DNA from: Candidatus Uhrbacteria bacterium
GTDB taxonomy: Bacteria; Patescibacteriota; Patescibacteriia; UBA9934; GWF2-40-263
DNA length: 34,488 nt
Assembly (NCBI GenBank): GCA_016188475.1
Contig: JACPHT010000008.1
Span: 1-34,488 of the forward strand
Direction: 5' to 3'
Under the pieces are notes generated by a model. It made no database searches. It worked only from the letters and a program-made list of their open reading frames with translations, and was not told the DNA's origin. Within the stretch, counting starts at the first letter, position 1. The number at the start of each line of letters is the position of its first letter. Below, piece after piece: positions 24,852-31,545 of this stretch. A program made the position numbers and the translations under genes.

Positions 24852-26096
24852 CTATCGGCTCACATCTCTAAGTTTGCGATGATATTGTACAGCAAAACGG
24901 TGTGCTTCGTCGCGAGCGCGTTGCAACAACTCTTTTTTACGATTAACCAGACTTAACAATTCTAAGTTTGTGTGATCGAACACAAAACGATCTTGTTTTC
25001 TATCAAAACCTTTTGCGATTCCGACAACGGGAATTATTATATTCATTTCTTCCAAAATTTTCCGCGCTCGATTTACTTGCCCTTCTCCACCATCGATAAT
25101 TATAACTTGCGGCAAAGACCAGGCGTTCGGAAAATTTTTTGCTCGCAATAAACGCCGTCTCAAAACTTCTTCCAACATCGCAACATCGTTTGACCCTTTT
25201 ACTGTTTTAATTTTAAATTTTCTGTATTGTTTTTTTGATGGTTTGCCTTCTTCAAAAACAACCATCGAACCAACAGCGGACGTTCCTGAAATGTTGCTTA
25301 TGTCATAGGCTTCAATACGACCTTGAGAATCGTTATCAATATCGTCTTTCGAAATGAGAGCGATATCTTGAATGTGCTCGAGCGCGAACAAATGACGTTT
25401 TAATTCAGCGGCTTTTTCAAAACGTAACTCTTTTGAAGCAAGCTTCATATCGCGTTCAATTTGACGAATAATCTCTTTTTTCTTTCCTTCAAAAAACAAA
25501 ATCAATTGACGGATAATGGCTCGATAATCTTTTTTTGAAATCGATCCAATGCACACGCCAGGACATTTTCCAATGTGAGAATAAAAACACGGTCTTGTTC
25601 TTCCGGTCACCTCTGGAGGCTGACATTCACTCCATGGAATTGCTTTTCGAATAATATCAAGCGCTTTCTTGAGCGATGCACTGCTTGTGTATGGTCCAAA
25701 CACTTTCAAAAAATTTTTTGAAGATGTATGTTCCAACTCATGTCCTCGAATTAGCGTCGGTCTAGGAAATGGTTCGTTCGTTATTGCTAAATACAAAAAA
25801 CTTTTATCATCGCGTTGTAAAATGTTGTACTTTGGTTTTTTGGCTTTGATTTGATTTGCTTCAAGAATAAGCGCTTCGATAACAGTCGGTGTTGTAATAT
25901 ATTCAATTCGCGCAATATGCAAAACCATTTCCGCGATTCTATCGCTTGCTGGTTTTGTAAAATAAGAATTGACACGGTTTCGCAAAGACGTTGCTTTTCC
26001 AACATACAAAAGCGCGCCGGTTTTATTATAATAAAGGTAAACACCTGGTTTATCAGGAATGCTATCTTTCTTAATTTTAATCTTGTTTGGAATCAT
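24852..26096 (-). CDS. uvrC: Excinuclease ABC subunit C, short form
   Basis: A 414-residue UvrC, the dual-incision nuclease of nucleotide excision repair. It has the N-terminal GIY-YIG domain ('GVYLYYNKTGALLYVGKATSLRNR'), then a Cys-rich segment 'RPCFYSHIGKCPGVCIG', the UVR motif helix ('RDMKLASKELRFEKAAELKRHL') and the RNase H-like endonuclease domain ('IEAYDISNISGTSAVGSMVVF', 'IIIDGGEGQV', 'RDEAHRFAVQYHRKLR'). It stops right after that domain, so the tandem helix-hairpin-helix DNA-binding domain of the usual 600-residue UvrC is missing. The TAG after RDVSR gives a clean end, with no in-frame remnant that I can see. A TATAAT at 26120-26115 is a likely -10 with a short leader. The start codon lacks a clear Shine-Dalgarno. 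Confidence 0.93.
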   Translation of the reverse strand: MIPNKIKIKKDSIPDKPGVYLYYNKTGALLYVGKATSLRNRVNSYFTKPASDRIAEMVLHIARIEYITTPTVIEALILEANQIKAKKPKYNILQRDDKSFLYLAITNEPFPRPTLIRGHELEHTSSKNFLKVFGPYTSSASLKKALDIIRKAIPWSECQPPEVTGRTRPCFYSHIGKCPGVCIGSISKKDYRAIIRQLILFFEGKKKEIIRQIERDMKLASKELRFEKAAELKRHLFALEHIQDIALISKDDIDNDSQGRIEAYDISNISGTSAVGSMVVFEEGKPSKKQYRKFKIKTVKGSNDVAMLEEVLRRRLLRAKNFPNAWSLPQVIIIDGGEGQVNRARKILEEMNIIIPVVGIAKGFDRKQDRFVFDHTNLELLSLVNRKKELLQRARDEAHRFAVQYHRKLRDVSR

Positions 26097-26682: not shown

Positions 26683-29229
26683 TTACTTCTTCAACACTCT
26701 CTTCAAATACTGTCCTGTGTAACTTTTTGCGTGGCGCGCGATTTCTTCTGGTGTGCCAGCAAACACAACTTCCCCGCCTTGATCTCCGCCCTCTGGTCCA
26801 AGATCAATGATCCAATCTGCTGTTTTTATTACATCCAAATTGTGTTCAATCACAACAACAGAATTTCCTTTATCAACAAGAAGATGTAAAACTTCAAGCA
26901 ATTTTTTTACATCAGCAAAATGCAAACCAGTGGTTGGCTCGTCAAACAAATAAAGCGTGCGGCCTGTTTGACGTTTGGCAAGTTCTGTCGCGAGTTTAAT
27001 GCGTTGCGCTTCGCCGCCAGAAAGCGTTGGAGCCGGCTGGCCAAGTTTTATGTATGACAAACCGACTTCGTTCAGTGTTTTAAGAATATCAGAAACCATT
27101 GGAATATCTTTAAAAAATTCACTCGCTTCTTCAACAGTCATTTCAAGAACATCAAAAATGTTTTTATTTTTATAATCAATTTCCAAAGTTTCACGATCAA
27201 ATCGTCGTCCTTTACAAACATCGCATTTCACATAAACGGTTGGAAGAAAATGCATTTCAATCGCGATCATCCCGTGGCCTTCACAGTTTTCACAACGTCC
27301 GCCCGGACGATTAAAACTAAAACGTCCGGGCTTGTATCCTCGATATCGCGCTTCTGAAGTTGCGGAAAATAATTCTCGAATCGGACCCCACGCTCCAGTG
27401 TACGTTGCCGGATTTGAACGCGATGTTCGGCCAATAGATGATTGATCTATCAAAATCGCTTTATCAAGATACTCAAGACCGAGCACTGCTTTGTGCGCGC
27501 CAGGAGTGTGTTTACTTCCGTACAATCGTTTGGCGATTGTTTTATACATTGTTTCGTAAGCAAGCGTTGATTTACCAGAACCAGAAACTCCAGTAATACA
27601 AACGAAACGTCGAAGTGGAATGTCAACGTCTATGTTTTTCAAATTGTTAGCGCTCGCTCCGCGAATTTTTATTACGTCCTTGGCAATTGTTCGACGATGT
27701 TTTGGAACTTCAATCTTTTCATCACCACGCAAAAACGCGGCAGTCAATGATTTTTTATCTTCAAAAATTTTAGGCGTCTCGCCAGCGGCAATAATTTCAC
27801 CTCCATGTCTCCCAGCTCCAGGCCCAATCTCAACCATATAATCGGAAGCAAGAATCGTATCTTCATCATGTTCAACAACAATCACAGTGTTTCCAAGATC
27901 CCGCAAACGTTCGAGTGTTTCAATCAAACGATCGTTATCACGTTGATGCAATCCGATTGTTGGTTCGTCCAGGACATACATCGCGCCAACAAGCCGCGTT
28001 CCAACTTGTGATGCAAGACGAATGCGCTGTGCTTCTCCTCCGGAAAGTGAACCAGCCATACGATCAAGTGAAAGATAATGCAATCCAACATCCATCATAA
28101 ATTGAAGACGATTTTGAATTTCTTTCAAAATCGAACTTGAAATTTCTTTTTGTTTTTCTGTCAATTTGAGATTTTGAACAAATTTTGTCGCGTCATCAAT
28201 CGACATTTTTACAACATCAACGATCGATTTATTACCAACACGAACAAATAAAGCTTCGTTTCGCAAACGCGCGCCAGTACATTTTCCACAAAGCTCTTCG
28301 CTAAAAAGTTCCGCAGTTCCAAGACCCCCGCATTGTTCACAAGCCCCGTGTGGAGAATTAAACGAAAATAAACGCGGCTCTATTTCCGGAAAAGAAAATC
28401 CGTCTTTTGGACAACTATATTTTGAAGACAAAAGTTGTTCATTACCATCTGGATAAACGATAGTCGCTACGTCGTTGCCTCGATTAACAGCAGTTTCCAA
28501 TGCTTCTGCAAGACGCTGACGAAAATCCAAAAGAGATCCTTCGACTCGCTGATGCTCGCTCAGGATGACAGGAACTGGAATTGTATCAATCACAACTTCG
28601 ATTGTATGTTGTTGATAACGAGCAAGTTTAATGTGCTGATCCAAACGAAATTCTTTTCCATCAATCCTCACTCGCGCAAAACCTGAATTATACAAATCGT
28701 ATAACAATTGATAGTACTCGCCTTTCCGCCCAAGTACGACCGGCGCGAGAATTTTTATCGATCCCTTTCTTCCATCTTGGTCCTTTTGGTCTTCTCGGAC
28801 CTTCCCCAACACGACATCCACCATTTCTTCATTTGTGAGTTTTTGAATTTCTTTTCCGCACTTCACGCAGTGTGGCTGGCCAATCCTCGCAAACAAAACA
28901 CGCAAATAATCATAGACTTCAGTAATTGTCGCGACAGTTGAGCGCGGATTGTTGGAATGCGCTTTTTGATCAATCGAAATCGCCGGAGACAAACCCTCAA
29001 TTTCATCAACGTCTGGTTTTTCCATTTGACCCAAAAACTGTCTAGCATATGCGGACAGAGATTCGACATATCGTCTTTGACCTTCTGCGAAAATTGTATC
29101 AAAAGCCAAACTTGATTTTCCGGAACCGGAAACTCCCGTAAAACAAATCAACTTGTTGCGCGGAAGTTCAAGCGAGATATTTTTTAGATTATGTTCCCTC
29201 GCGCCCTTGATTATTATTTTATCTTGCAT
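26683..29229 (-). CDS. uvrA: Excinuclease ABC subunit A
   Basis: An 848-residue damage-recognition ATPase. It has two ABC cassettes with Walker A '[14 protein letters not shown]' and '[13 protein letters not shown]', signature motifs '[12 protein letters not shown]' and '[12 protein letters not shown]', and zinc-binding pairs 'CEQCGG', 'CGKC' and 'CENC...CDVC'. I use the ATG at 29229 ([17 protein letters not shown]), the family start. The frame runs 46 codons upstream without support. The protein is shorter than E. coli UvrA (940). The stretch between 'CEQCGGLGT' and '[13 protein letters not shown]' lacks about 100 residues found there. An in-frame repeat encodes [13 protein letters not shown] (28533-28570), and a low-complexity [14 protein letters not shown] lies before '[15 protein letters not shown]'. 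It is the second gene after uvrB on this strand. Confidence 0.95.
28533..28570. repeat. Dispersed repeat inserted in frame in uvrA
   Basis: GATCCTTCGACTCGCTGATG followed by CTCGCTCAGGATGACA: the same GATCCTTCGAC...GCTCAGGATGACA form found between genes at 4543 and 921. It adds about 13 codons between '[10 protein letters not shown]' and '[15 protein letters not shown]' without breaking the frame. Confidence 0.8.
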
Positions 29230-29319
29230 ATATATATCCACAAATAAAGTTTGACAAATATAGCTCAATATGATTGAATATAAATAGTGAGTGAAGAAAA
29301 ATATTCTCGTTGTCACATT

Positions 29320-29356
29320 AAGATCCTCCTGTTTATTCTGGGGGATCTTTTTGTTT
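29320..29356 (+). terminator. Terminator-like hairpin upstream of the tRNA-like sequence
   Basis: AAGATCCTCC pairs with GGGGGATCTT over 10 positions (one G-T pair) and is followed by TTTTTGTTT on the plus strand. No plus-strand gene ends here, so it could end an antisense or leader transcript, or just be part of the structured block. Confidence 0.45.
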
Positions 29357-29369
29357 ACCCGAGCCAAAA

Positions 29370-29446
29370 GGGCTCATTGAAGTAACTGGTAACTTCACTC
29401 GCTTTGACAACGAGAATTACTGGTTCAAATCCCGTTGAGTCCACCA
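29370..29446 (+). tRNA. tRNA-like sequence, probable degenerate tRNA (pseudogene?)
   Basis: A 77-nt sequence that folds as a cloverleaf: acceptor GGGCTCA/TGAGTCC, D-arm GAAG-CTTC, anticodon arm CTCGC-TTTGACA-ACGAG, T-arm ACTGG-TTCAAAT-CCCGT, encoded ACCA. Faults: C-A at the base of the anticodon loop, T-C in the T-stem, and C37 instead of a purine. The loop reads TGA at 34-36, but the short variable loop argues against tRNA-Ser; a one-base shift would give a GAC (Val) anticodon. Flanking DNA is complementary to its anticodon arm (29303-29315) and T-arm (29463-29470), so competing folds exist. Confidence 0.35.
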
Positions 29447-29535
29447 TCGATTTATTTCGATGTGCCAGTAATTTTGCCCTGGCTCGGGACCACCACCCCA
29501 CTCCATCAATTCGATGGAGTGGTTGAGATATCAAA

Positions 29536-31545
29536 TTATTTCTTTAACAAATCAATTTCATCTCTCAAAATCGCCGCGGTTTCAAAATCCAACATCCGCG
29601 TCGCTTCTTTCATTTCTTGCTCTTTTTCTTTAATTACTTGTTTAATTTCGTGTGGCTCGGCAGTTAGCTCAAGCTCTAAAATTCGTTCCGATGTTTCCTG
29701 TTTTTCTCCTCCAAGATTGCCTCGAATATCCTTGATTTCTTTTTGAATACTTTGCGGAGTTATGTGATGTGTCTTATTATATTCGATTTGAATTTTGCGT
29801 CTGCGATCTGTTTCTTTAATCGCGCGTTTGAGCGATCCTGTCATTTGATCCGCGTACAAAATAACTTCTCCATTTATATTACGAGCCGCGCGTCCAATTG
29901 TTTGAATGATCGACGTTTCTGAGCGCAAAAAACCTTCTTTATCAGCATCCAAAATCGCGACGAGCGTTACTTCAGGCAGATCCAATCCCTCACGAAGCAG
30001 GTTCACACCAATCACAACGTCATACGCGCCCTTTCGCAAATCAGAAAGAATCGTGATGCGATCAAGAGTTTCAACATCAGAATGAAGATATTGAACTTTG
30101 ATATTTTTTTCTTTTAAGAACTCCGTCAAATCTTCCGCCATTTTTTTTGTAAGAGTTGTGACGAGCACACGTTCCTTTTTTGGAACACGATTTTCGACTT
30201 CTTTTATCAAATCACCAACTTGGCCATCGTTTGAGTCTGTCGGTGTGATAGGACGCACTGTAATTTTTGGATCAACAAGCCCTGTTGGACGGATAACTTG
30301 CTCAACAACTTGTTGAGAAACTTTTTTTTCGTAAACACTTGGCGTCGCGCTTGTAAAAATTACCTGACCAATCTTTTTTTCAAACTCATTAAACTGAAGC
30401 GGACGATTATCAAGCGCTGACGGCAAACGAAAACCATGCTCGATCAAAGTTTTTTTTCGAGCCTGATCCCCATTGTACATTCCGGAAACTTGAGGAACAG
30501 TCACATGAGACTCATCAATGATAGTTAAAAAATCTTTCGAAAAATAATCGATGAGTGTTTTTGGAGCTTCGCCTGGCGAACGCCCGTCGAAATAACGTGA
30601 ATAATTTTCAATTCCATTGCAATAACCGATTTGTTCGATGAGCTCAAGATCATATCGTGTGCGTCGACTCAATCGTTCTGCCTCAAGAATTTGTCCAGAC
30701 TTTTCTAATTCTTCCAAACGATTTTTTAGTTCCTGGCGAATCGCGCGAATCGCACTTTTTTGTTTTGAACTTGAAACAACATAATGTTTAGCTGGAAAAA
30801 TCCAAATGTTATTAACTGCCTTTCGAAGTTTCCTCGTTATTGGATCAAGTTCATGAATCGAATTTACATAATCTTGCTCAAACAACAAACGATAGATAAT
30901 TTCTTCATTCATCGGCATTATCTCAAGCACATCGCCCTGAACTCGAAAATGTCCGCGAGTTAAATCAGAGTTCGTTCGTTCAAATTGCATTTCAACAAGT
31001 CGTCTCATCAATTCCTCCCTCTTGGACATCTGGGCCATCTTGGACATCTGGGCATTTTCTTCAATTCCAACATGTAACATTTCATTCTCATACGCTTCCG
31101 GACTTCCCAAATTATAAATACAAGAAACTGATGCGACAACAATAACATCTCTTCTGCTTAACAACGCTTGCGTTGCCGCGTGTCTTAAACGATCAATCTC
31201 CTCATTTATCATTGATTCTTTTTCAATGTATGTATCGGTTCGCGGCATGTATGCTTCAGGTTGATAGTAATCATAATAACTTACGAAATACTCGACAGAG
31301 TTTTCTGGAAAAAATTCTCGAAACTCGTTGCAAAGTTGAGCCGCAAGTGTTTTGTTGTGCGCAATCACAAGTGTCGGACGCTGAATTTGTTCGATCACAT
31401 TCGCAATCGTAAAAGTTTTTCCAGAACCGGTAACTCCAAGCAAAGTTTGAGCGCGATTTCCAGCTCGAACACCGACCATTAGTTGCTCAATGGCTTTTGG
31501 TTGATCACCGGCAGGTTGAAATTTAGAGCGAAGTTTAAATTCCAT
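29536..31545 (-). CDS. uvrB: Excinuclease ABC subunit B
   Basis: A 669-residue damage-verifying helicase-like subunit. Walker A '[15 protein letters not shown]', the beta-hairpin region '[20 protein letters not shown]', '[32 protein letters not shown]', 'QTIGRAARN' and the C-terminal UVR motif '[23 protein letters not shown]' are all present. Length and start ([22 protein letters not shown]) are normal. An in-frame near-tandem repeat encodes [10 protein letters not shown] at about residue 167 (31022-31054), a place where most UvrB proteins have a short loop. The gene lies upstream of uvrA on the same strand, with a 306-bp structured gap between them. A hairpin TCCCAT/ATGGGA at about 31556-31582 precedes it. 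Confidence 0.96.
31022..31054. repeat. 18-bp tandem repeat in frame in uvrB
   Basis: TTGGACATCTGGGCCATC is followed by TTGGACATCTGGGCA. On the coding strand this reads [11 protein letters not shown], and the unit is a multiple of three. It resembles the GGTCCTTTTGGTC-type low-complexity runs at 28770-28805 in uvrA and 16690-16728 upstream of rsmH. Confidence 0.75.

Follow-up and report, generated by a model that had tools for sequence, protein, structure and literature searches.

A conserved RNA module with an alanine-type tRNA-like domain and a complementary leader between uvrB and uvrA in a “Candidatus Uhrbacteria” genome

The window, i.e., the whole analyzed stretch of 34,488 nucleotides from a “Ca. 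Uhrbacteria” contig, contains the uvrA (26683–29229) and uvrB (29536–31545) genes, both identified on the minus strand with NCBIfam models. The element studied here lies between them, as the first-pass annotation of the sequence had stated, and uvrC is also located nearby. The UvrB protein was closest to the records of Magasanikbacteria, Uhrbacteria, and Parcubacteria, with 60–62% identity, an affinity that assigns the window to Patescibacteria. The uvrC reading frame (24852–26096, minus strand) encodes 414 amino acids and matches the 574-position model in two stretches. The genome that includes the window (G000) has a size of 893 kb and is 97.7% complete. Its inventory comprises no fewer than 43 normal tRNAs that exceed the cut-off, tRNA-Ala(UGC) and tRNA-Ala(CGC) among them, and the isoacceptor in question was not missing, a point that the first-pass annotation had suggested checking. 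In addition, truncated partial copies of tRNA-Lys(UUU) (G000:C1:49979-50039, L016) and tRNA-Val(CAC) (G000:C10:142284-142346, L010) were observed near their intact genes. An ordinary tmRNA gene is located elsewhere in the genome (G000:C10:102752-103142, 140.9 bits) and no RF00023 match was found in the window; identification of the element as a tmRNA was rejected on these grounds.

On the plus strand of the uvrB–uvrA junction, ARAGORN detected a 77-nt cloverleaf with CCA at positions 29370–29446 and called it tRNA-Ser (TGA). The cloverleaf and the mismatches in its anticodon and T stems had been noted before, and both were recovered, the mismatched pairs being 31.39 and 51.63, respectively. 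The score of the cloverleaf against the Rfam tRNA family (RF00005) was 21.3 bits, which is below the 29-bit cut-off, and no other Rfam family reached its threshold at the element. When the plus strand of the whole block was folded as RNA, the fold was much more stable than those of shuffled sequences (z = −7.9; 0 of 200 shuffles).

All parts of the element are read on the plus strand. The first is a DnaA-box-like motif, ATATCCACA (29234–29242), which has one mismatch to TTWTNCACA and is separated by 8 nt from the downstream −35 box of a predicted promoter, P1 (29251–29279). By consensus match, P1 is a near-consensus sigma70-like promoter consisting of the −35 box TTGACA (29251–29256), a 17-nt spacer, and the TG-extended −10 box TTGAAT (29274–29279), an arrangement common to nearly all copies of the element. 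The −10 box ends approximately 7 nt before the leader segment L1 (29286–29296), where transcription is predicted to start. L1 is complementary to positions 29393–29403; this 11-bp arm, absent from the first-pass annotation, is 91% complementary, and its odd pair is G.T. The second leader segment, L2 (29303–29315), forms a perfect arm with positions 29405–29417 of the anticodon loop and 3′ strand, in agreement with the 13-bp complement of the anticodon arm described earlier. L2 is followed by H1 (29320–29356; arms 29320–29329 and 29340–29349), a terminator-like hairpin with a U-rich tail. The tRNA-like domain (29370–29446) comes next and is enclosed by the 9-bp outer stem that had already been seen on the first pass; its 5′ arm, CCCGAGCCA (29358–29366), is of the CCCGGG type in most copies from the window's order, and its 3′ arm, TGGCTCGGG (29480–29488), was located by the inverted-repeat search. 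The domain has the acceptor strands GGGCTCA and TGAGTCC with G3.U70, A73, and CCA, a D-loop with GG, the T-loop TTCAAAT, and the non-decoding anticodon loop UUUGACA. An extra arm (29465–29473) complementary to 29415–29423 (AATTACTGG/CCAGTAATT) pairs with the variable region and T stem of the window copy itself; it corresponds to the T-arm complement reported before and was measured as 9 bp. The candidate transcript end is a 3′ hairpin (29498–29522), the T-run of which is weaker here than in relatives, where the hairpin is terminator-like.

A blastn search with a query of 311 bases against 145 relatives revealed related elements in approximately 18 genomes, with a maximum of four per genome. 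Twenty-one copies were trimmed and aligned, and a covariance model was built on 20 of them. The raw tally of model matches, 358 of 381 genomes of the class, was not used because it consisted mostly of ordinary tRNAs; carriers were counted only at approximately 75 bits or more, or when the copy was read by eye. In the window's order, 20 of the 37 sampled genomes carried the element at 75 bits or more, often with two to four copies each. Outside this order, the element was rarer in the phylum: the full layout was recognized by eye in eight copies from other classes (L167–L171, L176, L183, and L184), and the remaining inspected matches from other classes were ordinary tRNAs or ambiguous. Altogether, approximately 70 curated copies in unrelated intergenic sites share one layout, in which P1 is followed by L1, a short loop, L2, the U-tailed H1, the outer stem, the tRNA-like domain, and the 3′ hairpin. 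The H1 hairpin and its T-run were present in the copies inspected at the sequence level. Some unusual forms were also observed. In L139 (G006:C5:81651-81832) and L140 (G005:C4:38670-38834), the T-loop is split by a structured insert several tens of nucleotides in length, downstream of which the remainder of the T arm and the acceptor follow; the insert may be intron-like or a decay product. The variant pair L160 (G091:C28) comprises two copies approximately 640 nt apart, with a contiguous rather than permuted antisense leader, a G3.U70 acceptor, a more canonical loop, and an Ile-type GAU anticodon.

The leader is complementary to two nearly contiguous strands of the tRNA-like domain. One of them, T1, is the D-3′/anticodon-5′ strand and is complementary to L1; the other, T2, comprises the anticodon loop and 3′ strand and is complementary to L2. 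Given the order L1-L2-T1-T2, the two helices cross and have a pseudoknot topology. Covariation was assessed on the 20 copies obtained by BLAST before any model was built. In this set, 10 of the 11 L1:T1 pairs and 9 of the 12 L2:T2 pairs showed double changes, and 95.9% and 83% of the respective cells were paired. The covariation value over L1:T1, L2:T2, H1, and the acceptor and T stems was 0.487 compared with 0.227 after shuffling (0/500), and it did not exceed 0.14 once the strands were slid by one to three columns. The D stem (98% paired) and the anticodon stem (87.5%) also covary, although they are mutually exclusive with the leader helices. The L1:T1 and L2:T2 helices average 10 and 11.6 bp over 73 copies, and in 69 of these the combined complementarity was higher than in any of the 28 ordinary tRNA genes used for comparison. 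The L1 and L2 sequences change quickly, even among copies at the uvrB–uvrA site, and only the complementarity is kept; the leader of each copy matches its own mimic. When 16 copies were split into leader and mimic, the predicted pairing gain averaged −9.0 kcal/mol for cognate and −1.7 ± 2.1 kcal/mol for mismatched partners, although the gain was small in some copies. Duplex energies computed with the leader in one piece discriminate poorly because the two segments are permuted, and scoring L1:T1 and L2:T2 separately discriminates better.

These patterns bear on the earlier proposal of a tRNA that had decayed and been captured by a palindromic element. A functionless tRNA gene in a palindromic repeat would explain the low Rfam score, the T-stem mismatch, and the extra arm of the window copy, and it could hold for that copy alone. 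The family as a whole argues against it: the approximately 70 copies keep their layout with heavy compensatory change, found in every helix of the 20-copy set, G3.U70 is fixed, and the promoter is conserved. Moreover, the element occurs only once in its own genome, so it is not a repeat there. We therefore regard decay as very improbable. A palindromic repeat or mobile element as such was rejected in view of this single copy and the lack of a recurrent neighboring gene. The window copy itself may be drifting, because its T stem carries a mismatch and its tRNA-like domain, folded alone as an 80-nt sequence, does not have the cloverleaf as its minimum-energy structure; both the extra arm and the T51.C63 mismatch are absent from an orthologue at the uvrA site (L038). 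The comparison of copies places the element in a conserved family of self-contained RNA modules, and it is neither a decay product nor a chance structure.

The most constant part of the module is the upper acceptor stem. The pairs G1-C72, G2-C71, and G3.U70 were each present in 70 of 70 curated copies and A73 in 69; the copies beyond the first 20 were recovered with a model that favors G3.U70, and the first 20, found by BLAST, had it in 20 of 20 cases. Acceptor pairs 4–7 vary with compensation, and the anticodon arm varies as well. G3-U70 is the major determinant of recognition by alanyl-tRNA synthetase (AlaRS) in all three domains of life (PMC6451123). Among the 30 tRNAs checked in the window's genome, G3.U70 occurred only in tRNA-Ala(UGC) and tRNA-Ala(CGC), and the tRNA-like domain has the identity set of tRNA-Ala (G3.U70, G1-C72, G2-C71, and A73). 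A near-invariant set combined with a variable remainder fits selection for charging by AlaRS. The elbow motifs, GG in the D-loop and TTCAAAT in the T-loop, are also kept. The anticodon loop has the consensus N-U-U-G-N-C-A with U33 in 66 of 70 copies, and a UGC or CGC triplet occupies the anticodon position in a minority of them. Position 37 is a pyrimidine in 60 of 70 copies, unlike in decoding tRNAs, and pair 31.39 is often mismatched; for these two reasons ordinary decoding by the domain seems unlikely. The window copy, with C37 and a C31.A39 mismatch, has neither the 7-nt loop with U33 and a purine at position 37 nor the intact 5-bp stem of a decoding tRNA, and with its subthreshold score it was rejected as one. 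Of the earlier suggestions, an unusual tRNA or a tRNA mimic was thus close, and conservation in relatives was observed despite that score.

The fixed alanine identity also weighs on a reading in which the leader regulates mRNAs as a small RNA, with the tRNA-like part serving as a sponge for it. The leader does resemble a free-standing, terminator-ended small RNA, and it is complementary to the mimic; however, the fast change of L1 and L2 even at the same uvrB–uvrA site speaks against this reading, and the alanine identity would be left without explanation, so we consider this reading improbable.

The promoter region provides further hints of regulation. A DnaA-box-like 9-mer (at most one mismatch, either orientation) was found before the −35 box in 45 of 61 copies from the window's order compared with 8.6% of control windows, usually approximately 8 nt upstream of it, and DnaA may bind the motif. 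A second −10-like box (TATAAT/TATACT) lies 16–24 nt before the tRNA-like domain in most of the distant copies and in a few copies of the window's order (L138, L143, L144, and L155), which suggests the synthesis of two separate RNAs. No second promoter was visible in the window copy, and the mimic there would need read-through of H1.

The genomic context is variable. An all-against-all comparison of flanking ORFs revealed no recurrent protein family beyond shared orthologous sites. The uvrB–uvrA junction is occupied in G000, G035, and G022; in G001, of the same genus, uvrA begins approximately 40 nt after uvrB and the site is empty, and G009 also lacks the element. With other copies beside unrelated genes and a uvrB–uvrA junction of the same genus free of it, the earlier idea of a regulator of uvrA finds no support as a general role. 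No real match pointed to phage carriage: one sequence pattern gave none, two pattern matches in IMG/VR were chance matches inside reading frames, and blastn of phage records returned short matches only, several of them to tRNA genes.

The same context allows two further readings to be weighed. The element could supply an alanyl-tRNA that does not decode and serves purposes other than translation, for instance as the donor in a tRNA-dependent transferase reaction or as a sensor of alanine charging; its level would be regulated by the leader. The alanine identity of all 70 copies despite a non-decoding anticodon loop and the retained elbow would agree with this, but a metabolic adaptor would hardly be expected to be lost from close relatives or to exist as several orthogonal copies, and no linked enzyme gene was found among the flanking ORFs; we consider it unlikely. 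An RNA-only toxin-antitoxin system is a stronger possibility, albeit a tentative one. Here, a labile, strongly transcribed antisense leader would be the antitoxin, and the charged mimic would be the toxin, disturbing translation by missense, frameshifting, or blocking upon leader decay. Such a role would be consistent with a discrete module present several times per genome with its own leader–mimic pair in each copy, with the patchy presence in the order and the clean empty site, with a strong consensus P1 against a weak or absent second promoter, and with the frequent U33. On the other hand, the pyrimidine at position 37 and the frequent 31.39 mismatch make normal decoding doubtful, and the second promoter is mostly absent from copies of the order. 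The pairing is conserved and copy-specific, and two promoters occur in only part of the copies.

Taken together, the comparative data suggest that the element is likely a two-RNA toxin-antitoxin or regulatory module. In its specific form, in which a tRNA mimic that is charged with alanine but does not decode is kept inactive by the antisense leader of the same copy, we give the proposal about an even chance. According to it, P1 would produce a short leader RNA comprising L1, L2, and H1, with the alanine-type mimic lying beyond H1, and pairing with the leader would inactivate the mimic by opening its D and anticodon arms. In copies with a second −10 box after H1, the mimic might be made on its own and be targeted by the leader in trans; copies of the window's order mostly lack this box, and there pairing might take place in cis within read-through transcripts or through leader RNA terminated at H1. 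A fall in leader supply would free the folded, alanine-charged mimic, which could then act on translation or on enzymes that use alanine-tRNA, and, to judge from the DnaA-box-like motif, synthesis of the leader might be tied to DnaA status. The anticodon of tRNA-Ala is not read by bacterial AlaRS, and the anticodon arm would therefore be free to vary. It is conceivable, but doubtful at present, that the copies represent a Patescibacteria-wide class of all-RNA toxin-antitoxins or switches, with an alanine-charged mimic as effector and the anticodon arm as a copy-specific address for the antisense leader made from a DnaA-box-bearing promoter.

If the module is real in the cell, it would be a new RNA class in a phylum with tiny genomes and few retained regulators, a class in which tRNA identity is reused apart from decoding and mutually exclusive, covarying folds are maintained at one locus; some Patescibacteria genes annotated as tRNA-Ser, -Thr, -Pro, or -Ala would then not be decoding tRNAs. 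The RNA gene family is apparently undescribed: searches of an open-access library revealed no description of the element. Its ingredients, namely an AlaRS-recognized tRNA-like RNA, an antisense leader, and a terminator, are known, and their combination is not known to us.

Among known systems, T-box leaders resemble the element in having a leader followed by a terminator and in anticodon pairing, but the tRNA-like RNA paired here is encoded immediately downstream in the same element, which controls no protein gene beyond it; Rfam gave no T-box match at the element. The tmRNA (ssrA, RF00023) likewise includes an alanine-identity (G3.U70) tRNA-like domain in a larger RNA with pseudoknot-type pairing, whereas the element has no tag reading frame, possesses a D stem and an anticodon arm, and is approximately 200 nt long. 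With bacterial tRNA-Ala it shares G1-C72, G2-C71, G3.U70, A73, the elbow motifs, and, in many copies, CCA; it differs in its variable C37 anticodon loop, the 31.39 mismatch, and the D arm, and in being preceded by an antisense leader and a terminator. Finally, CreTA (PMC8501985) and the antisense type I and type VIII modules are also small, rely on RNA partners, and are linked to tRNA biology, and the element is patchily distributed as well. In CreTA, a tRNA is sequestered by CreT through a mini-ORF, with CreA as a guide of the CRISPR type (PMC8501985), whereas the putative effector of the element would be the alanine tRNA mimic itself, with a leader that pairs in permuted order.
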